Origin: Cytophagales bacterium
GTDB taxonomy: Bacteria; Bacteroidota; Bacteroidia; Cytophagales; Cyclobacteriaceae
Assembly: GCA_017303805.1 (NCBI GenBank)
Contig: JAFLBQ010000004.1
Coordinates: 124,001-188,000 of the forward strand
Direction of reading: 5' to 3'
Length of the DNA stretch: 64,000 bases
Part shown: one piece after another, positions 701 to 23,703 of the stretch
Numbering within the stretch: position 1 is the stretch's first letter
How the letters are laid out: each line of letters starts with the position of its first letter
Notes under the pieces: model-generated
Database searches by the model: none
The model's input: only the letters and a program-made list of their open reading frames with translations
Told to the model about the DNA's origin: nothing
Position numbers and translations under genes: made by a program

Positions 701-742
701 TTAGGGTAGTACAGCTATGCTGTCTTTCGGGCATCTTTGCGG

Positions 743-1396: not shown

Positions 1397-1464
1397 CTTT
1401 CCTGCGCACCATCGGTAATAAAAAAAGAATTGCAGTAATTTTAGTTTTACTATAACCACTTCGT

Positions 1465-2016
1465 ATGATACCCACCCTTATAGCCATTGCCATCGCCCTG
1501 CTGCTGGCAATAATCGTTATTGTAATCTATAACAAAATAGCCAAAGCCAAGGTGCTAACCGAAGAAGGCTGGAGTGGCATTGGTACATTTTTACAACAGC
1601 GCGCCAATGTTATTCTTAACCTGGTTGAGGTGGTAAAAGGGTTTGCCGGCCACGAAAACAAAACCTTAACCGATGTGATCAAAGCCCGCAATGAATCGAT
1701 AAGCGCCTTGACACCCGAAGCACAGATTGCCGCTGCCCAACATTTAAGCACGGCCTTGTTAAATTTTAAAAGTTTAACAGAACATTACCCGGAGTTAAAA
1801 GCGAACGAAAATTTTCTGCGCCTGCAAAGCCAGGTGGACGAAATGGAGGAAAAGATTAACCAAAGCCGCAGGTATTACAACGGTACGGCCCGCGCCTATA
1901 ATCAACTACGGGTGGTATTTCCAAATATTTTGGTGGCCAATGCATTTGGGTTTAAACCCGTCCCTTTCTTTCAGGAAGATGAGAGCGCACGGATTGCACC
2001 ACAAATAAAATTCTAA
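1465..2016 (+). CDS. LemA family protein
   Basis: 183 residues. One N-terminal membrane helix (about 3-25) is followed by a short cytoplasmic-type linker and then the LemA helical domain. Family features visible are VVKGFAGHE with repeated acidic and basic helices, KARNESI, LRLQSQVDEMEEKINQSR and RRYYNGTARAYN, where the last block is the most conserved LemA signature. Length is typical. The cellular role of LemA proteins is not firmly known. They are commonly encoded beside DUF2207 or TPM-domain membrane proteins, as here, where the next gene starts 4 bp after this stop. The two are almost certainly co-transcribed. Confidence 0.88.
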   Translation: MIPTLIAIAIALLLAIIVIVIYNKIAKAKVLTEEGWSGIGTFLQQRANVILNLVEVVKGFAGHENKTLTDVIKARNESISALTPEAQIAAAQHLSTALLNFKSLTEHYPELKANENFLRLQSQVDEMEEKINQSRRYYNGTARAYNQLRVVFPNILVANAFGFKPVPFFQEDESARIAPQIKF

Positions 2017-2020
2017 CTGC

Positions 2021-4156
2021 ATGAAGCTGAAATTACTTGCTTTAAGTTGCAGCCTGCTGCTGGCTGTGAGTTCTGTGCGAGCGCAAGAGCTTATATACAC
2101 TACGGCTTCGGCTAAATTATTTACACAACAAGAACTACGCGACTTAATAAAGCAAGCTACAATCAATGCAATTGGTGATGTTACAATTCCTGCACCCGTT
2201 TTTGATAGCAACTACAAAAAATACGAGCAACAACTTTTGCGCGAAACCCACCCGCTAATCGTGCAGAGTTTTACCAGGGTAGAAAAAACAGGTGCACTCT
2301 CCAAAGAAATGCGGTTGGGTAAGTACAAACAAGAACTGTTTCGGGTGGTGCGCGAAGTAGTACTAAATAACCCGGCTTTTACCAATTTAGTAGCCTTTGA
2401 TTATAGCGATCGGATTCTTTCATTCATCAGCAACGTGCAAGTGCAACGCGATGGCTGGATTTCGGTAACCGAATACATTACCATTTACAATGGCAATGGC
2501 CGGCAGGGTTTCCGGTATTTAGAAAAATACCCCGGCTCTGGTTCTGTAAACAACGACATAAAGCGCGGGTTGGAGCGCACCTTTCCAACTATTTACACCG
2601 ATGAGCACGGGCTACAGACAACTGTACCATTTGAAGTAACGGGTGTAACAAAAAACGGGCAAGCCGAAAATTACAAGGTTGTAAAATATGGTAACGGATA
2701 CCTGGTACGTATCGGTTCGTCCGATGTGTTTCTGAAAGATGGAATCTATGAATATCAGATTTCTTACTTAACCAAATACCAGCTTAAGTTTCATTCAACC
2801 AAAACCGAGTTATACTGGAATGTGAATGGCAATGGTTGGATTTTTACGGCCGACAGTGTGGGCAGCACCATTGTATTTCCGGCAGGCGCTAAAATTTTTG
2901 AGCATGCATGTTATACCGGGTTAGAGGGTTCTACTGCCCGCAATTGCTCTGGCCAGCTTATAAACGATAGTACCATCCGGTTTGCAACGCAACAAAGGTT
3001 AAACTCCTACGAAGGACTTACAGTGGCTGCCGCCATTCAACCCGAAGTGATTGCAAAACCTGTTGCCACCGAAAGACTATTTAATCTTTTTGTATCAAAC
3101 TGGCAGCTTTCTGTGGTTACGTTTATTGTACTTGTTGTTTTCGGTATCAACCTGCGCAACTGGATAAAATTTGGCCGCGATCCCCGCCAAGGCACTATCT
3201 ATCCTCAATTTGAACCACCCGCATCCCTTTCGCCAGCCGATGCCGGATTTATTTACAACCAAAAATACAAACCCGAACAATTTAGTGCAGCCCTGGTAGA
3301 TCTGGCCGTAAAAGAAGCCATTCGCATTGATGTTCAGAAAAAAGGATCGGTGTTCAAAAAAACCAACTATACCTTTCACAAATCTAAAAACAAGGATGCG
3401 GTAAAAGATTTTGCAAAATCCATGTACGATTGGGAACTCGGTTTATTAGTAGGTTTAACTGCCAATGGCACCTACAACCCTACCCTTGAATCGCTTAGTG
3501 ATTCCTTACGGGCTAAACTCAAAAGTAACCTTCAGGCCGACTCGCATGGAAATAAAAAACGGATTGGATTTTTTTCTTTGAATGAGGGCGCGGGTTCGTG
3601 GGGATTTGGAGCCTGGTTTATTGCCATGATCTTTGGAGTTTTTGCCATTGCAGGCGCTTCGAATTTAATACCCGTGTTTATTACAGGTGGCCTGCTGTTG
3701 GTTGGGCTTGTAAGCCAGATTGTATTTCGTAGAATTATGCCGGCCTACACAGTTCAAGGGCGCAAACTTTTGGATGAATTAATTGGCTTTAGGATGTACC
3801 TGGCCACAGCCGAAGAAAAAAGATTTAATTCACTAAATCCCCCTGAAAAAAGTCTGCAACTATTCGAACGTTTTTTACCGTATGCCATAGCATTGAATTG
3901 CCAGCAGGAATGGACGGCAAAGTTTGAATCCATTTTGAAAGCGGCTATTGCCAACAAATCGTATCATCCGGCCTACTACAGTGGCGATATGAGCGACAAC
4001 CTCTCCTTTTCCTCGCTAAGCGAAGGGTTTTCGAGTAATCTATCGAGTACGATCGCGTCCTCTTCAACCGCACCTTCCGATTCGTCCAGCAGCGGAAGCG
4101 ATGGTGGTGGCAGCTCGGGTGGTGGCGGTGGCGGTGGCGGAGGTGGTGGTTGGTAA
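2021..4156 (+). CDS. DUF2207 domain membrane protein with Gly-rich tail
   Basis: 711 residues. A signal peptide (about 1-22, ending VRAQ) leads into a large extracytoplasmic region (about 120-330) matching DUF2207, with WISVTEYITIYNGNG and a YQISYLTKYQ-like core. A membrane helix lies near 355-377, a cytoplasmic region follows with charged helices, and two further helices lie near 526-570. The C-terminus is a Ser-rich stretch and then an almost pure glycine run ending in Trp (about 690-711). Glycine or serine tails of this kind are common in DUF2207 proteins. Function is unknown. Translational proximity to lemA suggests a shared membrane complex, which is inference. Confidence 0.85.
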   Translation: MKLKLLALSCSLLLAVSSVRAQELIYTTASAKLFTQQELRDLIKQATINAIGDVTIPAPVFDSNYKKYEQQLLRETHPLIVQSFTRVEKTGALSKEMRLGKYKQELFRVVREVVLNNPAFTNLVAFDYSDRILSFISNVQVQRDGWISVTEYITIYNGNGRQGFRYLEKYPGSGSVNNDIKRGLERTFPTIYTDEHGLQTTVPFEVTGVTKNGQAENYKVVKYGNGYLVRIGSSDVFLKDGIYEYQISYLTKYQLKFHSTKTELYWNVNGNGWIFTADSVGSTIVFPAGAKIFEHACYTGLEGSTARNCSGQLINDSTIRFATQQRLNSYEGLTVAAAIQPEVIAKPVATERLFNLFVSNWQLSVVTFIVLVVFGINLRNWIKFGRDPRQGTIYPQFEPPASLSPADAGFIYNQKYKPEQFSAALVDLAVKEAIRIDVQKKGSVFKKTNYTFHKSKNKDAVKDFAKSMYDWELGLLVGLTANGTYNPTLESLSDSLRAKLKSNLQADSHGNKKRIGFFSLNEGAGSWGFGAWFIAMIFGVFAIAGASNLIPVFITGGLLLVGLVSQIVFRRIMPAYTVQGRKLLDELIGFRMYLATAEEKRFNSLNPPEKSLQLFERFLPYAIALNCQQEWTAKFESILKAAIANKSYHPAYYSGDMSDNLSFSSLSEGFSSNLSSTIASSSTAPSDSSSSGSDGGGSSGGGGGGGGGGGW

Positions 4157-4276
4157 TTTGAACTTGCTGCACGCATCGGTGCAACGCTTACCGCAATGCG
4201 CAACTGGCAGAAAATTACTGGACTATTATTCTGAAATTTTCGTATTTACGAAGTTCGAAATCTTTAAAAATCCAGT

Positions 4277-6490
4277 ATGTGGCGTTTATTTATTGTTTGC
4301 GGATTGCTGTTAGTTACTGTAAAAGTTTCGGCACAAATAACCAGCACCTTTAATGCCAACGCCCAGGGGTGGACGGCCCCCGATGCCAACCCTTCAATTA
4401 CTTATAGTGCTGCAGGGGGTAACCCGGGTGGTTATGTAGCCGGTAACCCGTTTGTAATAATTTTAGGAGCTACTACTTTATACGTACCCTTCTATTTTGT
4501 GGCGCCTGCTGCTTACTTAGGCAACCGAAGTACCTATTACAATGGCACCCTTCGCTACGATGTACAACAAAGTACAACCGGTGCGCCTAATTCGTATGCA
4601 GAAGTAATTATTGCCAATAGCCTTGGTGTAACATTGTATTATTTTCCACCCATCTCCAATCAGCCACCGGCTGCACCAACCTGGGCAACTTATTCGGTGG
4701 TACTAAACAATACCCTGGGGTATTGGAAAACAACCAACAGTTCTACGGGTGGGGCCGCCACCGAAGCCCAAATTCAAAACACTCTACTCGATCTTGCCAG
4801 TTTGCAAATCCGCGGCCTCTACCGCGATGCCAACACCAATAATCGATTGGACAACGTAACCTTTTATCCGCCTATCGTGATTACCACGCAACCTACTTCT
4901 GTTTCGGTTTGCGATGGTATTTCTACCACGTTTACTACAGCCGCTATTGGCAATGCGGCCATCACCTATCAATGGCAACGCGAAACAACTCCGGGTGTTT
5001 GGACAAATGTTACCAACACCGGTGGGTACAGTGGCGCTACTACAGCCTCGTTGGGAATAAACACCACCGGAAATTTTGGTGGTGGTAATTACAGGTGCGT
5101 GGTTTCCGGTACGGCTGTAGTTGATGTAATTACCAACACAGCCACACTTACCATAACAGCATTGCCTGCTGCGCCTGGTACAACCGGGGCTGCGCGATGT
5201 GGGGCCGGATCAGTAACCTTAATAGCCACCGGTGCTGCTGCCGGGCAATACCGATGGTACACAGTGGCTACAGGCGGCACCGCCATTGCGGGACAAACCA
5301 ATGCAACCTACATTACACCATCGTTGGCTGCAACTACTATTTATTATGTAGCCATTAACAACGGCACCTGCGAAGGTAATCGCACAGCCGTAACTGCAAC
5401 TATCAATACAATACCCGGTGCCCCGGGAACAACTGGCGCTTCGGCCTGCGGTACTAGCAGCGTAACACTTACCGCTACGGGTGCCGCTGCCGGGCAATAC
5501 CGATGGTACACAGTGGCTACGGGTGGTACCGCTATAGCGGGACAAACCAATGCAACCTACATTACACCAACGTTGGCTGCCACTACTATTTATTATGTAG
5601 CCATTAACAACGGCACCTGCGAAGGTAATCGCACAGCTGTAACTGCAACTATCAATATCGTACCCAGTGCACCCGGTACTACCGGGGCCGAATCATGCAC
5701 ACCCGCCAGTTTAGTACTTATTGCCTCGGGTGGTGTTGCCGGACAATACCGGTGGTACACCGTGGCTACAGGTGGCACCGCCATTGCCGGAGAAACCAAT
5801 GCTACTTACACCACCCCCATGCTTGCAATAACTACCAGCTACTATGTGGCCATCAATAATGGAATCTGCGAAAGCACCCGCACCCAAGTACTTGCCAGCA
5901 TTGCGCCACCGGTTTGTACCAACGAACCACCGGCAATAAACATTACGGCTCAGGTAATCCAGATTGGTGGTACTATAACAATTGACCTAACCCAGTTGAT
6001 CAGCGACCCTGACAACAACCTTGATCTGAGCACACTTAGTATTGTTACCATGCCGCAACACGCGGCTTCGGCTTTTATTGATGGCAGTTTTAATTTAATT
6101 ATTAATTATTCGGGCGTACCCTACACCGGAAAAGATTCGGTAGCAATTCGGGTGTGCGATACTTTTACTTGCACCACACAACAAATTCAGATTGACGTGG
6201 TGGGCGAAATAAAAATCTACAATGCACTTTCCCCCGGCAACGATGGCCGAAACGATTTCTTTAAGATTGAACACATTGCCGCGTTAAGTACTACCCGCGA
6301 AAACAAAGTTTTCATTTACAATCGCTGGGGCGATATAGTGTGGGAAGGCACCAACTACGATAATGACCGGGTGGTATTTACCGGTAAGTCGAAACACAAT
6401 ACCGACTTACCAACGGGCACCTACTTTTACCGCATCAAATTTGAAGGCGGGCGTAAGCCAGAATCCGGGTACCTGGAGTTAAAGCGGTAA
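4277..6490 (+). CDS. Secreted multidomain protein with type IX secretion/gliding C-terminal domain
   Basis: 737 residues. It has a signal peptide (1-20, ending VSAQ), an N-terminal beta-rich domain of the carbohydrate-binding or lamin-like sort (about 20-195), an Ig-like domain (about 197-295), then three tandem 83-residue Ig-like repeats (about 297-545) sharing GQYRWYTVATGGTAIAG and YYVAINNG. A cadherin-like segment with SDPDNNLDLSTLS follows, and the gliding-motility-associated C-terminal domain (about 643-737) begins IKIYNALSPGNDGRNDFF and contains FIYNRWGDIVWEG and LPTGTYFYRIKF. That last domain is the type B sorting signal of the type IX system, so the product is probably exported to the cell surface or medium. 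An adhesin role is plausible but not shown. Confidence 0.85.
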   Translation: MWRLFIVCGLLLVTVKVSAQITSTFNANAQGWTAPDANPSITYSAAGGNPGGYVAGNPFVIILGATTLYVPFYFVAPAAYLGNRSTYYNGTLRYDVQQSTTGAPNSYAEVIIANSLGVTLYYFPPISNQPPAAPTWATYSVVLNNTLGYWKTTNSSTGGAATEAQIQNTLLDLASLQIRGLYRDANTNNRLDNVTFYPPIVITTQPTSVSVCDGISTTFTTAAIGNAAITYQWQRETTPGVWTNVTNTGGYSGATTASLGINTTGNFGGGNYRCVVSGTAVVDVITNTATLTITALPAAPGTTGAARCGAGSVTLIATGAAAGQYRWYTVATGGTAIAGQTNATYITPSLAATTIYYVAINNGTCEGNRTAVTATINTIPGAPGTTGASACGTSSVTLTATGAAAGQYRWYTVATGGTAIAGQTNATYITPTLAATTIYYVAINNGTCEGNRTAVTATINIVPSAPGTTGAESCTPASLVLIASGGVAGQYRWYTVATGGTAIAGETNATYTTPMLAITTSYYVAINNGICESTRTQVLASIAPPVCTNEPPAINITAQVIQIGGTITIDLTQLISDPDNNLDLSTLSIVTMPQHAASAFIDGSFNLIINYSGVPYTGKDSVAIRVCDTFTCTTQQIQIDVVGEIKIYNALSPGNDGRNDFFKIEHIAALSTTRENKVFIYNRWGDIVWEGTNYDNDRVVFTGKSKHNTDLPTGTYFYRIKFEGGRKPESGYLELKR
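5167..5913 (+). repeat. Three tandem 249-bp coding repeats (Ig-like modules)
   Basis: The anchor cgggcaatac or its variant starts at 5242, 5491 and 5740, giving an exact 249-bp (83-codon) period. Units 1 and 2 are nearly identical in DNA across the RWYTVATGGTAIAG block and the YYVAINNGTCEGNRTAV block. Unit 3 has diverged, for example GQT to GET and NGTCEGNR to NGICESTR. Confidence 0.9.
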
Positions 6491-6566
6491 CGCTAAAATA
6501 ATTCCGATTGATTCGTATGTGCTTTTTCCCAATCTTCGTTTTCTTACTTTAACTACTCTACTAAGC

Positions 6567-8813
6567 ATGAGAATACCGGTTGCCGTTTTACTTGCCTGTT
6601 GCACACTGGCGCAATCCTGTAAACAGGAAGCAGAAGACGAATCTACTTACCAGCGCAAGTTTATTACCACCAACCCCGACCCTAAGCCACTTTCACCCAA
6701 AGAGAGCATTAAGAAATTTCAACTACCACCCGGCTACCGGGTTGAACTGGTAGCCAGTGAGCCGATGGTGCAGGAGCCGGTGGCAATGGCCTGGGATGGC
6801 AATGGGGTGTTGTACGTAGTACAGATGAACACTTATATGAAAGATGCCAATGCCACCGAAGAGTATGAACCCACCAGTCGTATCATGCGACTGGAAGATA
6901 CTGACTGGGATGGCCACATGGATAAAGTGAGTGTGTTTATTGACAGCCTGGTGTTACCCCGCACAGTACTGCCTGTTGGTGATGAAGTATTGGTAACTGT
7001 TACCAACCAACAACATGTGTGGAGTTATAAAGATACCAATGGCGATGGCGTAGCCGATCAGAAAAAAATTGTGTTCCGAAACAATGCCATCGACTCGCGC
7101 AATCTCGAACATCAGAACGGAGGCTTTTATTGGAACCTCGACAACTGGATTTACCCTTCGCGCGATAACCTGCGCTACAAATACAAAAACGAAATGTTAA
7201 TTGCCGATACACTTGTCGATAATATGATTGGCCAATGGGGACTAACAGCCGATAATTATGGAAAACTTTTTTACTCGGAGGCCGGCCCCGGTTTGCCTGC
7301 GGTGCAGATACAGCAAATGCCGGCTTATGGTTCTCTTAACTTTCGCGATCAATATGCTGAAGACTTTACCTATCTGTGGCCGGTGATTGGGAATGTAGAT
7401 GCACAAGGCGGGCCGCGGGCATTGCGCGAAGACAGTACGCTGGTACGATTTACTTCAGGAACCGGTCAATCCATTTTCAGAGGTGACCGTTTACCGCAAA
7501 ATATGGTGGGCGATTATTTTATTCCCGAACCAGTAGGCCGTGTAATAAAACGGGGCAAGGTGATTAATCAAAATGGAAAAATCAGAATTGAACCTGCATA
7601 TAAAGGTGTGGACTGGCTCGCCTCCGCAGATATGAACTTCAGGCCTGTAAATACCTACACCGGGCCCGATGGTTGTTTTTACATTGTAGATATGTACCAC
7701 GGAATTATTCAGGAAGGCGAATGGACGCCTCCCGATTCTTACCTCGGAAAAAAAATTGTAGCGCTGGGTCTTGATAAAAATAAAGGCATGGGCCGCATCT
7801 ATCGGGTAGTGCACAAAGACTTTAAGCGCGATCGTACAAAACCCAACATGTTGAATGAACCGGCAAGTAAATTAGTAGCACATCTTTCGCACCCCAACGG
7901 CTGGTGGCGCGATATGGCGCAGCAGACTATTATTGTACGTAATGATAAATCGGCTGTACCTGCGTTGAAAAAATTAGTAAGTGATGGTTCACAACTGGCC
8001 CGCATTCATGCACTCTGGACGTTAGAGGGATTGGACGCATTGGATAAGGAAACCCTTACACTTGCTTTACAAGATACCGATTGGCAAGTACGCAAGAGTG
8101 CCATTTGGGCAAGTGAATTGTTTATTCAGCAAAATGATGATGAAGTCATTTCGCAATTAGGCCAACTTACTACCGATAGCAGTGCTGATGTACGCATACA
8201 ACTCATGCTTTCATTAAGAAATAGTACCAACCAAACGGCACAACAGGTTGTGCAAGAACTATTACGCACGAATACCGAAAACGAACTGATGCAGTTTTCT
8301 TACAAAGCCTTTGAAGAAACTAAGGTGAAAGCCGAAGCTGAGTTGGCGTTATTAAAAAATCTTAGTCCGGCCGATCGGGCGCTGGTATCAAAAGGTGCAG
8401 TGCGGTACAAGCAACTCTGCTCCAACTGCCACGGCATGAATGGAACAGGAATTGTGATGGGCAACGACCCCATGCCGGCACCGCCCCTGGTGGGTTCGGC
8501 CCGTGTTACAGGCGATAAAATTGCGTTGATACAATTAATGCTAATGGGCTTGCAAGGACCGGTGGACGGAAAAGATTATCCGAACATTATGCCACCCATG
8601 GCCAGTAACAGTGATGAGTACCTTGCATCGGTACTGAGTTACATTCGCAACAGCAGCGAGTTTGGAAATAAGTCTTCTGTAATAACAGAAGACGAAGTGA
8701 AGAACGTGCGCAGCTTTACTAAGTACATGCCACCCGGAGGAACCACGCTGCGATCGTTGGAAATAGGAAAACTGGGCCGGGCCGAACGACAAAACTGGGA
8801 TACGAAACGGTAA
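6567..8813 (+). CDS. Lipoprotein with PVC-type membrane-bound dehydrogenase propeller, HEAT-like repeats and C-terminal cytochrome c
   Basis: 748 residues from the ATG at 6567, chosen because it gives a clean lipoprotein signal (MRIPVAVLLACC, lipobox LAQSC); a GTG 48 bp upstream would spoil it. The N-terminal half is a beta-propeller resembling the Piru_Ver/DUF7133 dehydrogenase family, seen in FQLPPGYRVELVASEP and GRIYRVV. A helical HEAT-like region spans about 430-600. A monoheme cytochrome c domain has CSNCHGMNGTG at about 618 and a likely distal Met in the IMPPMAS region. The substrate is unknown; relatives are predicted sugar or alcohol dehydrogenases passing electrons to the bound heme. 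No partner gene is adjacent. Confidence 0.8.
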   Translation: MRIPVAVLLACCTLAQSCKQEAEDESTYQRKFITTNPDPKPLSPKESIKKFQLPPGYRVELVASEPMVQEPVAMAWDGNGVLYVVQMNTYMKDANATEEYEPTSRIMRLEDTDWDGHMDKVSVFIDSLVLPRTVLPVGDEVLVTVTNQQHVWSYKDTNGDGVADQKKIVFRNNAIDSRNLEHQNGGFYWNLDNWIYPSRDNLRYKYKNEMLIADTLVDNMIGQWGLTADNYGKLFYSEAGPGLPAVQIQQMPAYGSLNFRDQYAEDFTYLWPVIGNVDAQGGPRALREDSTLVRFTSGTGQSIFRGDRLPQNMVGDYFIPEPVGRVIKRGKVINQNGKIRIEPAYKGVDWLASADMNFRPVNTYTGPDGCFYIVDMYHGIIQEGEWTPPDSYLGKKIVALGLDKNKGMGRIYRVVHKDFKRDRTKPNMLNEPASKLVAHLSHPNGWWRDMAQQTIIVRNDKSAVPALKKLVSDGSQLARIHALWTLEGLDALDKETLTLALQDTDWQVRKSAIWASELFIQQNDDEVISQLGQLTTDSSADVRIQLMLSLRNSTNQTAQQVVQELLRTNTENELMQFSYKAFEETKVKAEAELALLKNLSPADRALVSKGAVRYKQLCSNCHGMNGTGIVMGNDPMPAPPLVGSARVTGDKIALIQLMLMGLQGPVDGKDYPNIMPPMASNSDEYLASVLSYIRNSSEFGNKSSVITEDEVKNVRSFTKYMPPGGTTLRSLEIGKLGRAERQNWDTKR

Positions 8814-8901
8814 ACTGAATAAAGTAGGCTCTCCAATTTCTATAGTTTACTCTGTAAAAATAAACTCTTATATAAATGCAGGTTAATGCACGGACAATAA
8901 A

Positions 8902-9564
8902 ATGCTTTCAACAAAAGTGATTTACTTGTTGAGTGGACTGGGTGCTGATAAACGAGTATTTGAATTTCTTGATCTTTCAGCTTTTACGGTTTCTCATATT
9001 GATTGGATCAATCCCGGTGAAAACGAAAGCCTTGAAGCCTATGCCAGGCGACTCTGTGCTCAAATCACAAGCAATAAGCCTACATTAATTGGTGTTTCCT
9101 TTGGCGGAATGGTTGCCATCGAAATTGCGAAACACATTCCCTGCGAGAAAGTAATCCTGATCTCATCGGCCGCAACAAAATCCGAAATCCCATTTTATTT
9201 CAGGATTGCTGGAAAAATGCGCTTTCACAAATTGGTACCGATTCAAATCCTTAAGCAGGTAAATTCATTCACACAATGGATGTTTGGAACGGAAGGTGCA
9301 GAAGAACGGGCTTTACTAAAAGAGATTATCCAACAAACCGACATTCGGTTTTTAAGATGGGCTATTGATAAGATAGTAAGCTGGAGGAATCTGAATACAC
9401 CGCCCCACGTTGTTAAGATTCATGGCACAATGGATCGTATTTTACCTGCCACCAAAGCCGATTATCAGATTGAAGGGGGTGGGCATTTTATGATTGTAAG
9501 TAAAGCAGCGGGGCTCTCAGTCATTCTTCACAAGCAACTTGCAGGCCCTACAAATCAAACCTGA
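8902..9564 (+). CDS. Alpha/beta hydrolase
   Basis: 220 residues with the alpha/beta hydrolase fold. The oxyanion strand has LLSGLGADKRVF, the nucleophile elbow GVSFGG places Ser at residue 66, an acidic residue lies in HGTMDRILP, and the catalytic His is in GGGHFMIV near the C-terminus. No signal peptide, so cytoplasmic. The substrate cannot be read from the sequence. The 3' end overlaps the convergent beta-barrel gene by 17 bp. Confidence 0.82.
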   Translation: MLSTKVIYLLSGLGADKRVFEFLDLSAFTVSHIDWINPGENESLEAYARRLCAQITSNKPTLIGVSFGGMVAIEIAKHIPCEKVILISSAATKSEIPFYFRIAGKMRFHKLVPIQILKQVNSFTQWMFGTEGAEERALLKEIIQQTDIRFLRWAIDKIVSWRNLNTPPHVVKIHGTMDRILPATKADYQIEGGGHFMIVSKAAGLSVILHKQLAGPTNQT

Positions 9565-10252
9565 ATATGCGGTAAGCAATGGAAATCTGTAACACCCTGT
9601 TTTTACTACCGTAGTCTTTATAGCGGGATCCATCATACGCTGCATTCATAAATTGCAAACCCAGGTAGTAGCGTACATCCATACTAAGGCCCATAGGAAG
9701 TTCCCAGCCTAGGCCAACATGCAATCCAAGATCAGATGCTTTGTAATCGTCTTTAACATTAAACACGTCATCACCTGTTTTGCCGGTGTTAAATTCATGG
9801 CGAGCCTCCGCCCCATCACCATCAAAGTCGTAATAATTTGCCCAGGCTTTGAGCAACCTGCCATACTGTGCCCCCAACTGCACATTCAGGTCTCCTTCAT
9901 CCAGTTGAAAAATTGTGTACTTAACCGTTAGTGGAATTGTAACGTAGTTGAACTTCGCAGTCCACTTTTGCTCATTGTCATTAGTGGGGTCATACTTAAA
10001 ATAAGAGCCTTGCTGGGAATACAATAACTCAGGTTGAATCACAAAATTTCTGGTTTTAAAATTAGCAAACACGCCTGCATGGAAGCCGGCCCTATTTGTG
10101 TACGTTTTTCCTTCATTCGCATCGTCAAATTGATACTTCGTATTAAACCGGGCTGCATTAAGTCCACCTTTTATGCCAATACCGGCCTCCATTTGCGCCA
10201 TAGCCGATGCCACCACAAATACAAAACTCAGGGTGCTTGCAATTTTTTTCAT
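9548..10252 (-). CDS. Outer-membrane beta-barrel protein (PorT/OmpW-like)
   Basis: 234 residues with a signal peptide (about 1-20, ending SAMAQ). The remainder alternates hydrophobic and polar residues as in a small outer-membrane barrel: IGIKGGLNAARFNTKY, GFHAGVFANFKTRNF, VIQPELLYSQQGSYF, YVTIPLTVKYTIF, GLHVGLGWELPMGLSMDVRYY and a C-terminal aromatic IFRFDL. This matches the Bacteroidota outer membrane beta-barrel (OMP_b-brl_2/PorT-like) group. The gene is divergent from the PorP/SprF gene, with a palindrome between them. The specific role is unknown. Confidence 0.85.
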   Translation of the reverse strand: MKKIASTLSFVFVVASAMAQMEAGIGIKGGLNAARFNTKYQFDDANEGKTYTNRAGFHAGVFANFKTRNFVIQPELLYSQQGSYFKYDPTNDNEQKWTAKFNYVTIPLTVKYTIFQLDEGDLNVQLGAQYGRLLKAWANYYDFDGDGAEARHEFNTGKTGDDVFNVKDDYKASDLGLHVGLGWELPMGLSMDVRYYLGLQFMNAAYDGSRYKDYGSKNRVLQISIAYRIFRFDL

Positions 10253-10306
10253 TTCAAGTTATGATTATGTGTACTGCGAAAGTAACCTCTACCCGCACCA
10301 GTCGAA

Positions 10307-10324
10307 ATCACATAATGATGTGAT
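10307..10324. promoter_or_regulatory. Perfect inverted repeat between divergent envelope genes
   Basis: ATCACAT-AATG-ATGTGAT: 7-bp arms, 4-bp spacer. It lies 55 bp from the start of the minus-strand barrel gene and 35 bp from the PorP/SprF start, a position suited to an operator shared by both. The regulator is unknown. Confidence 0.35.
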
Positions 10325-10358
10325 ACCCTTCTACGGGCTATTTAACGAGTTTTGGTAC

Positions 10359-11261
10359 ATGAAACTCCTAACCACCCTTGTGCTCTTATTGCTTGCCACA
10401 CTTTCGTTTGCACAGCAAGACGCGATCTACTCGCAATACCTGTTTAATCCGCTTATTGTTAACCCGGCTTACAGCGGCTTAAACAATACCTTTAACGGAA
10501 CCATCGGCTATCGAACCCAATGGATGGGACTGGAAGGCCAGCCACAAACACTGAATGCCACGCTACACACGTCACTGGTTCAAAATAAGGCCGGTGCCGG
10601 TTTATTGGTAAGTACCGATCGCATCGGTAGCCTGAACACCACCGAAATCAATGCGACATTTGCGTACAAACTGCGATTCGAAAAGCAGACTTTCAGTTTT
10701 GGCATGCAGGCCGGAGTGCAGAATTTCAACAACTCCATGAAGGGCATTAATCCTTTCGATCCGGCAGACGATTTGTTCTTAACTGGCGAGCGCGGAACCC
10801 GCATTAACCTGGGCGCGGGCGTAGCTCTTAAAAGTGAAAAATACTTCATAGGACTTTCCGCACCCCGGCTATTACCAACCACTTTTAAAAGCGGAGATCA
10901 GCAATTCGATTTATACAATCAACATTTGTATTTGATGGGTGCGTATGTGCACTATTTGAATGAACGAATCCGGTTAAAACCAACTGTACTGTTACGAGGA
11001 GTAAAAGGTGCCCCGGCTTCTATTGATGTAGGACTGAATGTAAACTACAACGCCATTCATACAGCCGGAATTTTTACCCGCAACTTTAACACGTATGGGG
11101 TGTTGCTGCAAACACTGTTAAAAGAGCAGTACCGGTTTGGGTATGTATTTGAAATGCCAACCGGCAAATCGGTAGGCACCCAGTTTAGCACACACGAGGT
11201 CATGCTGGGCATTCAGTTAGCTGCGTTCAGTTTTCATGAAAGGTCATTGAGTAATTTTTAG
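10359..11261 (+). CDS. Type IX secretion system PorP/SprF family membrane protein
   Basis: 300 residues from the ATG at 10359, chosen because it begins a clean signal peptide (MKLLTTLVLLLLATLSFAQQ). The mature N-terminus has the family hallmark QDAIYSQYLFNPLIVNPAYSG followed by GTIGYRTQWMGLEGQPQT. The rest is a predicted outer-membrane barrel. PorP/SprF proteins assist secretion or surface attachment of gliding-domain proteins and are often encoded beside giant repeat proteins carrying the gliding C-terminal domain. The next gene starts 19 bp downstream and encodes such a protein, so the two probably form a dedicated secretion/cargo pair. Confidence 0.93.
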   Translation: MKLLTTLVLLLLATLSFAQQDAIYSQYLFNPLIVNPAYSGLNNTFNGTIGYRTQWMGLEGQPQTLNATLHTSLVQNKAGAGLLVSTDRIGSLNTTEINATFAYKLRFEKQTFSFGMQAGVQNFNNSMKGINPFDPADDLFLTGERGTRINLGAGVALKSEKYFIGLSAPRLLPTTFKSGDQQFDLYNQHLYLMGAYVHYLNERIRLKPTVLLRGVKGAPASIDVGLNVNYNAIHTAGIFTRNFNTYGVLLQTLLKEQYRFGYVFEMPTGKSVGTQFSTHEVMLGIQLAAFSFHERSLSNF

Positions 11262-17028: not shown

Positions 17029-17171
17029 TTCCGAACACTACGGCTATCAAAGGCAATGGAAGCTTACAAAAGGTTAGTAACCCTATTTCTATCTTCTTAC
17101 ATTAGCCCCGCCATAGGCATTTAAGGAATCTATAAAGTGAAATGGCATTGACCTTGAAAAAAACTAAACGC

Positions 17172-19328
17172 ATGAAAAAACTTAAAATCTACTTTTACTT
17201 CGCATTGGCCATAGCATGGTGCGCTGCCTGTAAACCCGCTGATGAAACCCGCGTGCTAAGTTCGCCTGGACCGCGGGCGGAAAAAAAGCCCGACACCCTT
17301 ACCGGAAACCGCATCGACAATTACTACTGGATGAAACTTTCGGATGAACAAAAAAATGCAACTCAAAAAGACGTACAGGCACAAAAGGTAATTAACTATC
17401 TGAATGCCGAAAACGAGTACCTGAAAACTACTTTACAACACACCGAGGCGCTACAGGAAAAAATTTATAACGAGATAGTCGGGCGTATAAAACAAACCGA
17501 TGAGTCAGTACCCTACAAAGACAACGGCTATTGGTACTACACGCGTTATGAAGAAGGAAAAGAGTATCCAATCTATTGTCGGAAAAAAGGAAGCTTAGAG
17601 GCTGCCGAAGAAGTTCTGTTAAATGTAAACGAGATGGCGAAAGGCCATAGCTACTACTCCATTACCGGTTTAAGTGTAAGCGAAGACAACAACCTGCTGG
17701 CGTATGCCGAAGATTCAGTAAGCCGCAGACGCTACACCGTGTATATAAAAGATTTGCGCACCGGTAAGTTAATTGAAGAGCCGGTACCTAATACCGAAGG
17801 CCAAATTACCTGGGCCAACGATAACAAAACCTACTTTTATACCCGCAAAGATTCAGTAACCCTTCGCTCGCGCTGGATTATTCGCCACCAGGTTGGAAGT
17901 TCTTATAAAACCGATCCGGTGGTTTCGGAAGAAAAAGACGAAACATTTTATACAGGCATTTATAAAACCAAATCAAAGAAATACCTGGTTATCTGGGCCG
18001 GCAGTACCCTTACCAACTACTATCAGATTTTAGATGCCAATACACCCACCGGCAAATTCAAAGAATTCAGCTCGCGCGAACGCGGGCTGGAATACTCTAT
18101 AGATCACTATGGCGATAAATTTTATGTGGTTACTAACCTGGATGCACAAAATTTCAGGCTGATGGAAACCCCGGAAACCAAAACCGCAAAAAATAATTGG
18201 AAAGAAAAAATTGCTCACCGCAAAGATACGTTGCTACAAAGCATTGAGATTTTTAAAAATTATCTTGTATTGAGCGAGCGTGCAAATGCTAACACCCTCA
18301 TGCGTATTATCGATCAGACAACCGGTAAAAAGCATTACCTCGACTTTGGTGAGCCGGCCTACACGGTGTATCCTTCTATCAATATCGATTTTGATACAGA
18401 GCTGTTGCGTTACGGCTACACATCGCTGGCTACGCCCAATTCTACATACGATTACAACATGCGCACGCGTGAACGGAAATTGTTGAAGCAGCAGGAAATT
18501 GTTGGCGGTTACAATCCCTCCGATTTTGTTACTGAGCGCCAGTGGGCTACTGCCGATGATGGCACACTTATACCACTGTCGATCGTTTATAAAAAAGGAA
18601 TCGAAAAAAATGGCAGCAACCCTACCCTGCTTTACGGATATGGCTCGTATGGCGCCAGCATGAGTCCCATGTTCTCTTCTACACGGCTCAGCCTTCTAAA
18701 CCGCGGTTTTGTGTATGCCATTGCCCACATTCGGGGTGGCCAGGAAATGGGCCGCCAGTGGTATGAAGACGGAAAGATGTTTAAAAAGAAAAATACCTTT
18801 ACCGACTTTATCGATTGTGCCGAATACCTGATAGAAGAAAAATATACTACGCCAGAAAAATTATTTGCCTCGGGTGGTAGTGCCGGTGGTTTATTAATGG
18901 GTGCCATTGTTAACATGCGCCCCGAATTATTTAAGGGAGTGATTGCGGCTGTTCCGTTTGTGGATGTGGTTACTACCATGCTGGACGAAAGTATTCCGTT
19001 AACGACTGGCGAATTTGATGAATGGGGCAATCCAAAAAATCCAGAGTCGTACATGTACATGTTAGAATACTCGCCTTACGATCAGGTGAAGCCGCAGAAC
19101 TATCCCAACATGTTGGTTACCACCGGATTTCACGATAGCCAGGTGCAGTATTGGGAGCCGGCTAAGTGGGTTGCCAAATTGCGCGAGTTAAAAACCGACA
19201 ACAATAAATTATTGCTACGCACCAATATGGAAACCGGCCATGGTGGCACAACCGGTAGGTTTAAAGTTTATAGGGAAACCGCACAAGAGTATGCATTTTT
19301 AATTGACCTGGCTGGAATTAAAGACTGA
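17172..19328 (+). CDS. S9 family peptidase, oligopeptidase B-like lipoprotein
   Basis: 718 residues from the ATG at 17172, chosen because it starts a lipoprotein signal with lipobox WCAAC; the frame also has an ATG 30 bp upstream. An N-terminal seven-bladed propeller (about 60-430) gates a C-terminal alpha/beta hydrolase domain. The catalytic triad is visible: Ser in ASGGSAGG (about 571), Asp in GFHDSQVQYWEP (about 654) and His in ETGHGGTTGR (about 691). GYGSYG and HIRGGQEMGRQWYEDGK are strong oligopeptidase B/prolyl oligopeptidase signatures. It should cleave short peptides at the cell envelope. Oligopeptidase B prefers basic residues at P1, but the exact specificity is not assured here. Confidence 0.9.
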   Translation: MKKLKIYFYFALAIAWCAACKPADETRVLSSPGPRAEKKPDTLTGNRIDNYYWMKLSDEQKNATQKDVQAQKVINYLNAENEYLKTTLQHTEALQEKIYNEIVGRIKQTDESVPYKDNGYWYYTRYEEGKEYPIYCRKKGSLEAAEEVLLNVNEMAKGHSYYSITGLSVSEDNNLLAYAEDSVSRRRYTVYIKDLRTGKLIEEPVPNTEGQITWANDNKTYFYTRKDSVTLRSRWIIRHQVGSSYKTDPVVSEEKDETFYTGIYKTKSKKYLVIWAGSTLTNYYQILDANTPTGKFKEFSSRERGLEYSIDHYGDKFYVVTNLDAQNFRLMETPETKTAKNNWKEKIAHRKDTLLQSIEIFKNYLVLSERANANTLMRIIDQTTGKKHYLDFGEPAYTVYPSINIDFDTELLRYGYTSLATPNSTYDYNMRTRERKLLKQQEIVGGYNPSDFVTERQWATADDGTLIPLSIVYKKGIEKNGSNPTLLYGYGSYGASMSPMFSSTRLSLLNRGFVYAIAHIRGGQEMGRQWYEDGKMFKKKNTFTDFIDCAEYLIEEKYTTPEKLFASGGSAGGLLMGAIVNMRPELFKGVIAAVPFVDVVTTMLDESIPLTTGEFDEWGNPKNPESYMYMLEYSPYDQVKPQNYPNMLVTTGFHDSQVQYWEPAKWVAKLRELKTDNNKLLLRTNMETGHGGTTGRFKVYRETAQEYAFLIDLAGIKD

Positions 19329-19353
19329 TCAAATTTTTAGTTACAAGGATTGG

Positions 19354-19427
19354 TTAATCGCCTTTACCAACCCCGGGCCTTCGTAAATAAAGCCGGTGTA
19401 GATCTGAACCAGATCGGCACCGGCTTT
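19354..19427 (-). repeat. Duplicated fragment of the pyrD 3' end (copy B)
   Basis: These 74 bp match 20758-20831, the last codons of pyrD, with one synonymous difference (ccgat/ccgac). Read on the minus strand the fragment encodes the [12 protein letters not shown] to VKAIN region and continues in frame to QSL and a stop, a plausible original pyrD terminus. It has no start codon and is a remnant, not a gene. Confidence 0.93.
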
Positions 19428-19457
19428 TAAGTTATTTCAGGTCCGTACCGTGGTGGT

Positions 19458-20618
19458 TTAAATTAAGTCTCTCAAGAAGGTGCGAAGGTGTCGGTGTTGA
19501 ATGCCATTTCGGTTTCCACCTGCATCTTCATCCATACTCAGAACATACTTGGGGTAATTATCTGCTAATAGCTCAAGGTTACCAAACTCCCGCTGTATCG
19601 TGCGGTCGTCCATTAGTAAGTAGGTAACTTGTATATAGATTTTCTCATTTCCACGCTCGCAAACAAAATCTATTTCTTTATCCTGATACTTGCCAACATG
19701 TACGTTATACCCGGCAACCCGTAAATGGAGATAAACTATATTTTCTAAAATCTTGGAAATATCGGTTGGCTTATAGCCCAGAAGCGCGTGCCTCAACCCA
19801 AGCTCTTCGAAATAATACTTCTGGCCGATTTCTAAAATCTTTTTGCCTTGCAGTTCTGCCCGGTTCACCTTCAATAAAAAAAAGGCTTCTTCCAAATAAG
19901 ACAGATAATTAAGAATAACGTTCGGAGAAACCGAAATTTTCTGAGCTTTTAAAAAATCGCTTATACTCTTTGCTGAGAGTAAATTACCAATATTATCGGC
20001 CACATACCGAATCAAATTTTCAAGCAAGGAAACATTTCGGATATTATGACGCGCCACTACATCTTTGAACAGGATTGCAGCGTAAATATTTCTGAGGTAA
20101 TCGAACACAAGATGTTCGTTTAGCTCCATATTTATCAGGTAGGGTAATCCGCCAAACTTTAAGTATTTTAAAAAAACTTCTGCACTGTCCGCTTCTTTTC
20201 TAAAGTTTAGAAATTCACTATACGTAAGACTAAAAACTTTGAATTCGATATAGCGCCCACTTAAATAAGTTGCTAACTCACCAGATAGCAAGAAGGCGTT
20301 ACTGCCGGTAATATAAATATCGTGCTCGCCCTTTGCCTGAAGGCTGCGTAAACTTTTTTCAAAACCTGCTATATCCTGAACTTCATCAATAAAAATATAA
20401 TTCCGAACACCGGCTTTGATCTGGTTTGCCAGGTATTTGTTTAACGAGGTGTGATCCTGAATCCCTTCAAACTCATGATACTCCTTGTTAATATAAATTA
20501 TCGGGGCGTTAGGATTGCTCGATTTGATTACATCTATTAGTTGGAACAGCAAATAGCTTTTACCAACTCTGCGTTGCCCAATCATTACCTTAATCAAATT
20601 TTGCCCGATATAGGGCAT
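19458..20618 (-). CDS. AAA family ATPase with DUF4143 domain
   Basis: 386 residues from the first ATG. The AAA_14 domain has Walker A GQRRVGKSYLL at about 14-24 and Walker B YIFIDEVQDI near 92, followed by SGRYIEFKVFSLTYSEF, the usual signature after sensor 1. The C-terminal half is DUF4143 with a nuclease-like fold tail (KDKEIDFVCERGNEKIYIQVTYLL). Such ATPases are widespread in Bacteroidota and archaea with scattered distribution; their role is unknown. The open frame continues about 19 codons upstream without ATG, GTG or TTG, and that extension (YISRPLYLNRI) resembles the normal family N-terminus, so the true start may be non-canonical or lost. The gene is AT-richer than its neighbours and is bracketed by the 74-bp pyrD repeats, which indicates insertion. 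Confidence 0.87.
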   Translation of the reverse strand: MPYIGQNLIKVMIGQRRVGKSYLLFQLIDVIKSSNPNAPIIYINKEYHEFEGIQDHTSLNKYLANQIKAGVRNYIFIDEVQDIAGFEKSLRSLQAKGEHDIYITGSNAFLLSGELATYLSGRYIEFKVFSLTYSEFLNFRKEADSAEVFLKYLKFGGLPYLINMELNEHLVFDYLRNIYAAILFKDVVARHNIRNVSLLENLIRYVADNIGNLLSAKSISDFLKAQKISVSPNVILNYLSYLEEAFFLLKVNRAELQGKKILEIGQKYYFEELGLRHALLGYKPTDISKILENIVYLHLRVAGYNVHVGKYQDKEIDFVCERGNEKIYIQVTYLLMDDRTIQREFGNLELLADNYPKYVLSMDEDAGGNRNGIQHRHLRTFLRDLI

Positions 20619-20681
20619 AATTCGATTCAGGTAAAGTGGCCTTGAAATATAGTTTTGAGGCGTTTTTATGAAAATTTAATG

Positions 20682-20725
20682 TATAAGTGAAACTTTTTAT
20701 AAATATACAAAAAGTTCTACTTATA
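20682..20725. promoter_or_regulatory. Long AT-rich inverted repeat upstream of the AAA ATPase
   Basis: Arms 20682-20698 (TATAAGTGAAACTTTTT) and 20709-20725 (AAAAAGTTCTACTTATA) are 17 bp each with two central mismatches and a 10-bp spacer. It lies between the pyrD stop and the ATPase start. No uridine run follows on either strand, so an operator or the end of the inserted segment is more likely than a terminator. Confidence 0.4.
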
Positions 20726-20738
20726 AGTAAAAAAGTTT

Positions 20739-21767
20739 TTAAGGCTGGATGCTGGAATTAATCGCCTTTACCAACCCCGGGCCTTCGTAAATAAAGCCGG
20801 TGTAGATCTGAACCAGGTCGGCACCGGCTTTCAGCTTTTCGAGAGCATCTTGTGCCGACATAATTCCACCCACGCCTATTATTGGAAAATCTGCACCAAG
20901 GTGTGCACGCAAATACGCAATAACCTCAGTTGCTCTCGTGGTTAGGGGTTTACCACTTAGGCCACCATTGCCAATAGTCAAAACCTCCTCCGCGGCTGTT
21001 GCCAAGCCTGCCCGGCTAATGGTGGTGTTGGTTGCAATTACGCCATCGGTTTTTGTTTCCTTCAAAATGTCAATTACATCGTTTAGCTGGGCTTCGTTTA
21101 AATCGGGTGCTATTTTTAGCAGCACAGGTTTGTAGTTTGGCTTTGCTTTGCTTAATGCAATAACATCACTTAACAATTTTCGAAGTGGCTCCTTCTCCTG
21201 CAACGCGCGCAAGCCCGGGGTATTGGGTGAGCTTACATTAAGCACAAAGTAATCGACATACGGATACAGTGTTTCAAAACAGATGTTGTAATCTTCAAAA
21301 GCATTGTCGTTTGGCGTTACTTTGTTTTTACCAATGTTGCCACCCACTATTACTTTCGACTTTCTCCTTTTTAATCGTGCAACTGCAGCCGCCACACCGC
21401 CATTATTAAAACCCATTCGGTTTATAAGTGCGTTATCTTTTGGGAGCCGGAAGAGTCGTGGTTTATCGTTACCGGGTTGCGGTTTGGGTGTAAGCGTTCC
21501 GATTTCTATAAAGCCAAAACCAAATGCAGCCAGTTCGTCAATTAATTTTGCGTCTTTATCAAACCCGGCCGCCAGACCTACCGGGTTAGGGAAAGTAATT
21601 CCCAGAATTGTTTTACTGAGATGTGGGCTTTTTGTTTCATAAAAAGATCGCAGCAAACTCTTGATGCCTGGAATTTTTACAACAACTCTTAAAAATGAAA
21701 ATGTAAAATGGTGAATAACCTCGGGCGCAACTAAAAAGAGAATAGGCCTGAGAAAAAGTTTATACAT
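20739..21767 (-). CDS. pyrD: Dihydroorotate dehydrogenase (quinone), class 2
   Basis: 342 residues, matching class 2 enzymes. It oxidises dihydroorotate to orotate with a membrane quinone as acceptor, step four of pyrimidine synthesis. The N-terminal amphipathic helices (about 1-40) for membrane contact are present, then the FMN barrel with [39 protein letters not shown], the catalytic-Ser loop [16 protein letters not shown] and IGVGGI. The last residues (SSIQP after VKAIN) differ from those implied by the duplicated tail at 19354-19427 (QSL), so the terminus appears to have been replaced by the insertion carrying the AAA ATPase. Only the last few residues change and activity is likely kept. 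It follows the DUF4136 gene by 5 bp. Confidence 0.96.
20758..20831 (-). repeat. 74-bp direct repeat within the pyrD 3' end (copy A)
   Basis: Partner of 19354-19427 (73 of 74 identical). The copies lie 1404 bp apart in the same orientation and bracket the AAA ATPase gene. Identity stops right after the VKAIN codons, which marks the junction with inserted DNA. Confidence 0.93.
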
Positions 21768-22766: not shown

Positions 22767-23669
22767 CTAACTCCGCGGATGAAACTCCTGAATTACCTGC
22801 CGCAGGTAATCGCGATCGAGGTGTGTATAGATTTCGGTGGTGGTAATTGATTCGTGCCCCAGCATTTCCTGTACGGCCCGTAAATCGGCACCACCTTCAA
22901 TTAAATGTGTTGCAAAAGAATGCCGGAAGGTGTGCGGGCTGATGGTTTTCTTTAACCCGATTTTTGCAGCCAGCGCCTTAATAATAATAAATACCATTAC
23001 CCGAGTTAGTTTCTTACCGCGCCTGTTTAAAAAAACATAACTCTCAAAGCCCTGCTGCACCGGCACATGCACACGAACTTCGTCCAGGTAAATTTTTAAA
23101 AACTTCATAGCATCGCGCCCAATGGGCACCAACCGCTCTTTATTTCCTTTACCCGTTACCCGTAAAAAACCGATATCAAAATACACGTTGGCCAACCTTA
23201 ATTCTACCAATTCAGAAACGCGCACCCCTGAGCTGTAGAGTACTTCCAGCATAGCGCGGTTGCGGGCTCCTTCGGCTCCGGATAGGTCAATCGCTTCCAG
23301 AAGTCTTACAATTTCATCGTACGCTAATGTATCCGGTAGTTTGCGCCCTAACTTAGGGCCTTCCATCAGGGCGGTGGGGTCTTTCTCAACTAACTCTTCA
23401 AACAACAGATATTTATAAAAGGCTTTAATACCCGATAGGATACGCGCCTGGCTAAAAGCGCTCATCCCCAACTCGTTTATATATTCCAAAAAAGCCTGCA
23501 GGTGCTTTGGGGTTAGGGTTAGCGGACTGGTAGCTGCATTTTGCATGGAAATGTATTGCGCCAGTTTTTCCACATCGCGTACGTAGGCATCAATCGAATT
23601 TGCAGAAAGCGAGCGCTCCAACTTCAGGTAGGTTCCAAAATGTTTGATATGACTTTCCCAATGGTTCAC
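22767..23669 (-). CDS. xerD: Tyrosine recombinase XerD
   Basis: 300 residues from the GTG at 23669 (reading NHWESHIKHF), chosen because the frame's further upstream codon is a TTG lying within a promoter-like stretch and XerD proteins start close to this point. The N-terminal core-binding SAM-like domain spans about 1-90. The catalytic domain shows Arg in SSGVRVSEL, Lys in GKGNKERLVPI, HxxR in HTFRHSFATHL, His in LGHESITTTEIY and the nucleophile Tyr in IYTHLDRDYL. XerD resolves chromosome dimers at dif with XerC. The gene is divergent from aroQ. Confidence 0.95.
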   Translation of the reverse strand: MNHWESHIKHFGTYLKLERSLSANSIDAYVRDVEKLAQYISMQNAATSPLTLTPKHLQAFLEYINELGMSAFSQARILSGIKAFYKYLLFEELVEKDPTALMEGPKLGRKLPDTLAYDEIVRLLEAIDLSGAEGARNRAMLEVLYSSGVRVSELVELRLANVYFDIGFLRVTGKGNKERLVPIGRDAMKFLKIYLDEVRVHVPVQQGFESYVFLNRRGKKLTRVMVFIIIKALAAKIGLKKTISPHTFRHSFATHLIEGGADLRAVQEMLGHESITTTEIYTHLDRDYLRQVIQEFHPRS

Positions 23670-23703
23670 TGCGCAAATGTGCAAATTATTTTAACTTCGA
23701 AGC

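Follow-up and report, generated by a model that had tools for sequence, protein, structure and literature searches.

A DUF4143 ATPase gene between two copies of the pyrD tail in a Cytophagales genome: a probable old insertion with long target duplication

Genomic islands are integrated at the 3' ends of genes by tyrosine recombinases. Another route, insertion with long target duplication, was reportedly described for restriction-modification genes by Nobusato et al. in 2000, who are said to have proposed it as a way for genes to move, and again by Furuta et al. in 2010. Here, we analyze a locus of a Cytophagales bacterium (family Cyclobacteriaceae; assembly GCA_017303805.1) in which one gene, encoding an ATPase with AAA_14 and DUF4143 domains, lies between two copies of the 3' end of pyrD, the gene for dihydroorotate dehydrogenase. 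The locus is part of a stretch of 64,000 nucleotides (contig JAFLBQ010000004.1, positions 124,001 to 188,000), called the window below, in which all positions given without a locus name are counted.

According to excerpts of two papers, restriction-modification systems can insert with long and variable target duplications (PMC3874152, PMC3031569), the length being of the order of 100 bp in the excerpt of the former. The pyrD locus resembles these insertions in its small gene unit, in its long direct duplication of variable length around 100 bp (74 bp in the window, 86 bp at a second locus, L037) and in requiring no mobile-element genes; in addition, two relatives (G008 and G250) retain the empty, single-copy site. 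It differs in that the insert is a lone AAA_14/DUF4143 ATPase gene and not a restriction-modification gene, that the duplicated stretch is the end of an essential gene which stays whole, and that the copies are alike across a species split. With genomic islands, it shares a target at the end of a housekeeping gene that is restored by the duplicated stretch, but the insert comprises a single gene and no integrase, the duplication is long and variable, and 5' ends are used as well at other loci. DNA transposons and insertion sequences leave only a short target duplication, unlike the 74 bp observed here. We consider it probable that a single gene was inserted once, long ago and with a long duplication, at the junction of pyrD and a peptidase gene, that the copies have since been kept alike, that the insert can be lost exactly and that the same kind of event recurs for other ATPases of the family at other gene ends.

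An ATPase gene between two copies of the pyrD tail

The two copies are direct repeats of 74 nt with 73 identical positions and a start-to-start spacing of 1404 nt (Table 1), while all other direct-repeat families found between 17.5 and 23 kb measure 20-22 nt at 76-80% identity. They enclose 1330 bp of unique DNA with one open reading frame (ORF) of at least 80 amino acids, the ATPase gene. The ORF list and Pfam revealed no second ORF of this size and no recombinase, transposase or integrase within the insert, and a repeat search covering inverted arms of at least 20 nt found none at its ends. The pyrD ORF is intact and its product ends in KAINSSIQP; the outer copy, read in frame, encodes 28 residues ending in QSL and then a stop. 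Repeat search, Pfam and sequence thus uphold what the initial annotation had described, namely the bracketing repeat, the two different protein ends, and a discrete unit that settled at the 3' end of an essential gene, gave it a new terminus while keeping it whole, and lacks a recognizable recombinase. Past the 74 bp, the outer copy carries the bases found in pyrD of relatives (TGAAAAACTAAAAGCC with two one-base insertions) and the functional copy is altered, which makes it likely that the duplication first extended beyond 74 bp.

Table 1. Features of the pyrD locus in the window
Feature	Position	Strand	Evidence
Convergent prolyl-oligopeptidase-like gene, adjoining the pyrD end in relatives	17142..19328	+	ORF; named by reading, without family search
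Outer copy of the pyrD tail through to its own stop, taken as the ancestral pyrD end	19341..19427	-	Sequence; similar ends in relatives
Outer copy of the pyrD tail, detached from pyrD	19354..19427	-	Direct-repeat search, 73/74
39-bp hairpin of the outer copy, flanked by the ATPase and peptidase stops; putative peptidase terminator	19389..19427	.	Inverted arms; fold energies
Unique inserted DNA between the copies, 1330 bp	19428..20757	.	Sequence, repeats; ATPase in 2/48 pyrD loci
AAA_14 and DUF4143 ATPase gene	19458..20618	-	ORF; Pfam; alignment with L037; structure model
AT-rich 5' portion of the insert, presumed promoter; aligns with L037	20619..20757	-	Alignment
pyrD (dihydroorotate dehydrogenase), intact, new C-terminus SSIQP	20739..21767	-	Pfam DHO_dh 4.5e-88; ORF
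Functional (inner) copy of the pyrD tail	20758..20831	-	Direct-repeat search
39-bp hairpin within the functional pyrD tail	20793..20831	.	Fold energies; inverted arms

For comparison, pyrD ends were collected from 48 loci of the genus and the order, including 30 from the genus search, which had found pyrD in 56 of 62 genomes; 46 of them could be read, the remaining two being the window's own locus and one truncated by a contig end. The ending SSIQP occurs at none of these 46, and the ATPase gene in only two of the 48 loci, that of the window and L131 (genome G244). Alignment with relatives that lack the ATPase revealed single-copy sites in G008 and G250 (PyrD 84% identical in each), where the peptidase stop on the opposite strand overlaps or abuts that of pyrD. 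From this comparison, the insertion would be a derived state of the pyrD/peptidase junction, or one that the empty genomes have lost. A second pyrD-tail match in G009 was rejected as a duplication, since it belongs to the truncated end of a differing pyrD that lies on another contig. In a scan of genome contigs for the ATPase, the best of the 80 loci kept of 116 was L037, from the Cytophagales metagenome-assembled genome UWPOB_CYTO2. It carries an ATPase gene 87% identical to that of the window, behind pyrD and in the same orientation, with its own flanking repeat at the pyrD junction (86 bp, 84 identical). As L131 shares a 200-bp stretch with L037, both are taken to be the same genome, G244. 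In the only other occupied genome found, the ATPase gene is thus flanked by a duplication too. Neither of the two observations that the initial annotation had named as refuting its reading, an ATPase at this position without the duplication or a relative's pyrD already ending in SSIQP, was encountered. That the locus is an assembly artefact or a chance repeat has a negligible probability: nothing was found in favour of it, two separate assemblies hold the arrangement at the same place with different bases, and no second direct repeat of similar size lies in the region.

The repeat begins with a 39-bp hairpin, whose folding energy in the outer copy is -23.6 kcal/mol on the pyrD strand and -26.1 kcal/mol on the peptidase strand. 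This stretch was compared across 45 loci, i.e., the 48 minus one without a readable motif, the window's own and L131. At all six loci with the peptidase stop at most 15 bp from the pyrD stop, the hairpin reaches -21.6 to -27.8 kcal/mol on the peptidase strand and is followed by T-rich bases, compared with -0.4 to -20.5 kcal/mol at the 39 loci where the peptidase stop lies farther away or was not found in the available stretch (Mann-Whitney p 5e-5, ignoring relatedness). In L136, both arms carry a paired change (AAATCC / GGATTT). The hairpin is perhaps a terminator of the peptidase gene located inside the coding tail of pyrD. By duplicating the hairpin stretch, the insertion would have left both neighbours with what each needs: the inner copy completes pyrD, and the outer copy would leave the peptidase gene its terminator hairpin. 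A strong hairpin within a pyrD coding tail that abuts a convergent peptidase gene is seen, for example, in the window, L136, L138 and L139. In G233 (L130, reverse complement 2713-3783), a different gene of 356 amino acids separates pyrD from the peptidase gene, and the pyrD tail has a weak hairpin (-9.8 kcal/mol).

Age of the insertion and likeness of the copies

An identity of 73/74 could be read as the sign of a recent arrival, but the divergence between the window and L037 does not support this. At fourfold sites, the two genomes differ by 0.52 in the ATPase gene (51/99), 0.55 in pyrD (69/125) and 0.57 in the peptidase gene (143/250), so the ATPase gene has been diverging for about as long as its neighbours. 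On this equal divergence, together with the occupied second genome, a recent insertion was rejected; judged from these sequences, the insertion looks older than the split of the window genome from G244. In a pyrD tree of 14 sequences (tail excluded; nucleotide and codon models), occupied G244 groups with empty G008 (support 99 and 80 for the nucleotide and codon models, respectively) and then with empty G250 (93 in both), and the window lies outside these three. This topology is compatible with a single gain followed by two exact losses, or with two separate gains.

With two gains, the lineages of the window and G244 would each have received a related cassette independently, both at this pyrD end and each with its own duplication, the site being a preferred target. 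The grouping of occupied G244 with empty G008 suits such a history, as do the differing lengths of the stretches between repeat and gene on both sides and the fact that the copies are alike within a genome and different between genomes. We nonetheless regard it as unlikely, since the divergence of the ATPase equals that of the host genes, the promoter regions align and both genomes retain similar leftover pyrD bases at the right-hand junction. The equal divergence and the aligned promoters favour one gain.

The likeness of the copies follows the genome and not the position. Among the four tail copies of the window and L037, four sites (three of them outside the hairpin) group the copies by genome and none by position. 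Within the genomes, 0/12 and 0/11 fourfold sites differ; between them, 3/11 and 3/12 do. We infer that the copies have been homogenised within each genome since the insertion. Gene conversion over part of a longer duplication would best explain both the likeness by genome and the relatives-like bases beyond the 74 bp. Under a single gain, a cassette of about 1.3 kb, comprising the AAA_14/DUF4143 ATPase gene and its own promoter, would have entered the convergent pyrD/peptidase junction once, before the species of the window and G244 split, duplicating at least 74 bp, probably about 90 bp, of the pyrD tail. Since then, the copies of each genome would have been kept alike, gene conversion being the simplest means, while recombination between the two could excise the insert precisely and so account for the empty sites of G008 and G250. 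The insertion itself would most likely have passed through a widely staggered or doubly joined break, which the ATPase need not perform.

Flanking repeats across the ATPase family

The family was surveyed through 205 distinct AAA_14/DUF4143-like genes from 192 loci, 193 of which could be tested; the 12 others were dropped because one flank was shorter than 400 bp, and the gene of the window itself was not counted either. A direct repeat across a gene was counted if it scored 25 or more, with +1 per match and -2 per mismatch, and 775 other ORFs of at least 200 amino acids in the same loci served as controls (772 distinct, owing to three duplicates). Such repeats flank 30 of the 193 family genes and 11 of the 775 controls (Fisher 5.9e-14, or 6.4e-14 with the 772 distinct ones; relatedness among loci uncorrected). 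The 11 control matches include two AAA_14 genes (L041 and L304), a DDE transposase (L163), a Bro-N gene (L298), an SLFN_AlbA_2 gene (L102) and a Uma2 gene (L126). A third AAA_14 gene among the controls (L298, reverse complement 4519-5853) scores 24. When these three AAA_14 genes are removed from the 775 and the remainder is stratified by the non-coding share of the flanks, the counts are 6/56 for the family and 2/414 for the controls at a low share and 22/87 and 2/130 at a high share, whereas the excess is absent at a middle share (2/50 and 5/228). Many of the 30 family matches are intergenic and could be dispersed repeats. By eye, terminator-like or palindromic hairpins appear in the intergenic flanking repeats of L120 (1089-1205 and 2772-2888, reverse complement), L072, L084 and L071.

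Other accessory families, sampled as the 30 best-scoring loci of each from the host family and freed of mis-called, too-short ORFs (Fic L277 and L289; RhuM L246), have flanking repeats in 0/29 RhuM, 2/28 Fic and 0/30 SLFN_AlbA_2 genes, i.e., 2/87 compared with 30/193 for AAA_14/DUF4143 (p 4.4e-4). Both Fic matches, L291 and L295, come from genus g46. There, at about 1498-1875, Doc-sized Fic genes lie between copies of a coding-end-like stretch of 37-51 bp, possibly the same kind of insertion. Flanking repeats are thus also observed around other accessory genes, namely a Bro-N gene, the Doc-sized Fic genes and an orphan of 279 amino acids.

Repeats that fall inside a neighbouring ORF of at least 100 amino acids are found for 9 of the 193 family genes and 4 of the 775 controls (p 1.4e-4); of the nine, two (L151 and L200) involve short ORFs that are doubtful, and among the four, that of L157 looks like a dispersed repeat. 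Besides pyrD in L037, the duplicated 3' ends belong to mnmE (L312; 125 bp, 109 identical), a gene for a Por-secretion-tail protein (L315; 72 bp, 65 identical) and an alpha-fucosidase gene (L168; 58 bp, 52 identical). The 5' end is duplicated for genes encoding a PglD-like acetyltransferase (L159; 102 bp, 93 identical), an RNase R-like protein (L113; 76 bp, 73 identical) and a glycosyltransferase (L298; 44 bp, 39 identical), and a further copy (44 bp, 38 identical) flanks an adjacent second ATPase in L298. Relatives lack the ATPase at these places where they were compared: neither it nor a second tail copy occurs at 29 mnmE loci, four of which are covered for less than 1500 bp downstream (one of them for 36 bp), and it is absent from the 11 fucosidase loci among 15 other places listed. 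Two candidates were discarded, as the repeat of L081 consists of two diverged small ORFs (77 and 80 amino acids) and that of L109 (3770-3815) is the 3' end of the ATPase gene itself placed upstream of the gene, likely a remnant of an earlier copy.

The polysaccharide cluster of L298 (reverse complement 279-10500) contains three AAA_14 ATPase genes, the Bro-N gene and, by reading, an AlbA_2-like ORF among glycosyltransferase and sugar genes, and copies of neighbouring gene ends flank the ATPases and the Bro-N gene. In L039 (2350-5289), a glycosyltransferase start occurs three times, around the ATPase and around an ORF of 279 amino acids without a Pfam match, as if two insertions had entered one gene start.

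These loci bear on how the insertion took place. By one-sided homologous capture, a donor fragment with the ATPase gene and a homologous pyrD tail would have recombined within pyrD at one end and been joined illegitimately at the other, making the functional tail the donor's and the outer one native; this concerns the mode of insertion and is compatible with the age argued above. In the window, L037 and L168, the outer copies do retain bases or residues that are common to the relatives and changed in the functional copy. In L312, however, it is the functional mnmE tail that differs less from the two closest relatives (at 12 and 16 positions, compared with 17 and 17) and the outer copy that holds the unusual residues, so the reading of that functional tail as donor DNA was dropped, and the cases at 5' ends would require a mirror event. 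We rate such a capture as improbable. Site-specific integration at a gene end, driven by an integrase as in an island, would rely on a xerD-like gene 2 kb away or on a lost helper. A tyrosine recombinase gene is indeed present at 22767-23684, the target is a gene end, and the 3' end of mnmE is presumably an island integration site. Yet this recombinase gene adjoins, by reading, an aroQ-like ORF, an ordinary housekeeping setting. In 16 picked loci (18 genes), the gene in the insert is preceded by 50-335 bp and followed by no more than 336 bp, gaps too short for a recombinase gene, and the clear gene-end duplications span 44-125 bp and also occur at 5' ends. Integrase-driven insertion is hence highly improbable.

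Several observations weigh against a single old insertion of a recurrent kind with copies kept alike. On the pyrD tree, one gain requires two losses, and no genome midway between the two states was encountered. The tail is both short and, within the clade, conserved (empty G008 and G250 differ from each other at 3/11 fourfold sites), so the test for homogenisation has low power and its case is weaker than the body of pyrD suggests. Homogenisation is not general either, since the mnmE copies of L312 have drifted apart (16/123). Finally, no flanking repeats were found around any of the five other DUF4143 genes of the window genome. The last point also qualifies the initial annotation, which had proposed a mobility mode for orphan DUF4143 ATPases and a search of other such genes for duplicated neighbour ends. 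The enrichment of flanking repeats, some of which are ends of neighbouring genes, speaks for this mode as a tendency of the family; 163 of the 193 testable members have no flanking repeat at the score threshold, and other accessory genes share such repeats. L002 and L006, which are not part of this count, have no repeat either when read on the appropriate strand.

The ATPase and what its insertion means

The window ATPase has 386 amino acids and matches AAA_14 (PF13173; 2.2e-29, 102.5 bits, cut-off 27) and DUF4143 (PF13635; 1.6e-18, 67.4 bits, cut-off 28.1). Homology to L037 extends some 19 codons upstream of the first ATG/GTG/TTG (about 20618-20675), and the true start or the N-terminal integrity of the window protein is uncertain. 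A sequence search against solved structures gave no match. The AlphaFold model (mean predicted local distance difference test score, pLDDT, of 91.5) has as its best solved Foldseek match the archaeal AAA+ ATPase SSO1545 (2fna; E 2.9e-08, TM-score 0.49 on the query, 16% identity), followed by Orc1/Cdc6 and NB-ARC-type proteins; Cdn1 and VC1899 match weakly (TM 0.32 and 0.19). In the C-terminal part, E292, E315, D317 and Q330 are invariant in 46 family sequences. PD-(D/E)XK nucleases carry acidic residues and a lysine in their active site; the corresponding (D/E)XK position of the window protein reads Q-V-x and has no lysine, and the L312 relative matches Mrr_cat at only 2.1e-4. The invariant residues are reminiscent of a PD-(D/E)XK nuclease minus the lysine, and catalytic activity in the window's subfamily is doubtful. 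By eye, short motifs appear repeated in the AT-rich 5' regions of the inserts in the window, L037, L159, L304, L312 and L315, and may be candidate operators for self-regulation.

A bolder proposal is that orphan AAA_14/DUF4143 ATPases are self-moving elements, whose SSO1545/Orc1-like AAA+ module and nuclease-like C-terminal domain would open gene ends or terminator hairpins with a long stagger and insert the ATPase gene itself; the resulting duplication of some 40-125 bp would leave the target gene unharmed. The nuclease likeness it calls upon comes from fold comparison and the PD-(D/E)XK motif, and we hold the proposal to be rather doubtful. Relatives of the ATPase occur in distant groups (Roizmanbacteria, Pelistega, Desulfobacteraceae and Clostridia, among the best 80 of 116 loci), as expected of a gene exchanged between lineages. 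The titles and abstract openings returned by searches for DUF4143, COG1373 and the broader literature showed no account of the AAA_14/DUF4143 family being mobile; the excerpt of one paper describes a transfer case in which a divergent AAA ATPase replaces another, without mention of a target duplication (PMC11375855).

We read the pyrD locus as an old but informative instance of insertion with long target duplication, within a family for which the literature searches revealed no such report. It illustrates how an essential gene can take up a single gene at its end without harm, and it cautions that flanking repeats may be old despite their near identity. The enrichment of duplicated neighbour-gene ends around these ATPases hints at a route by which single genes can move. 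If this widespread family shows long target duplication systematically, it would offer a ready data set for the mechanism, with many insertions, readable empty sites and measurable duplication lengths.

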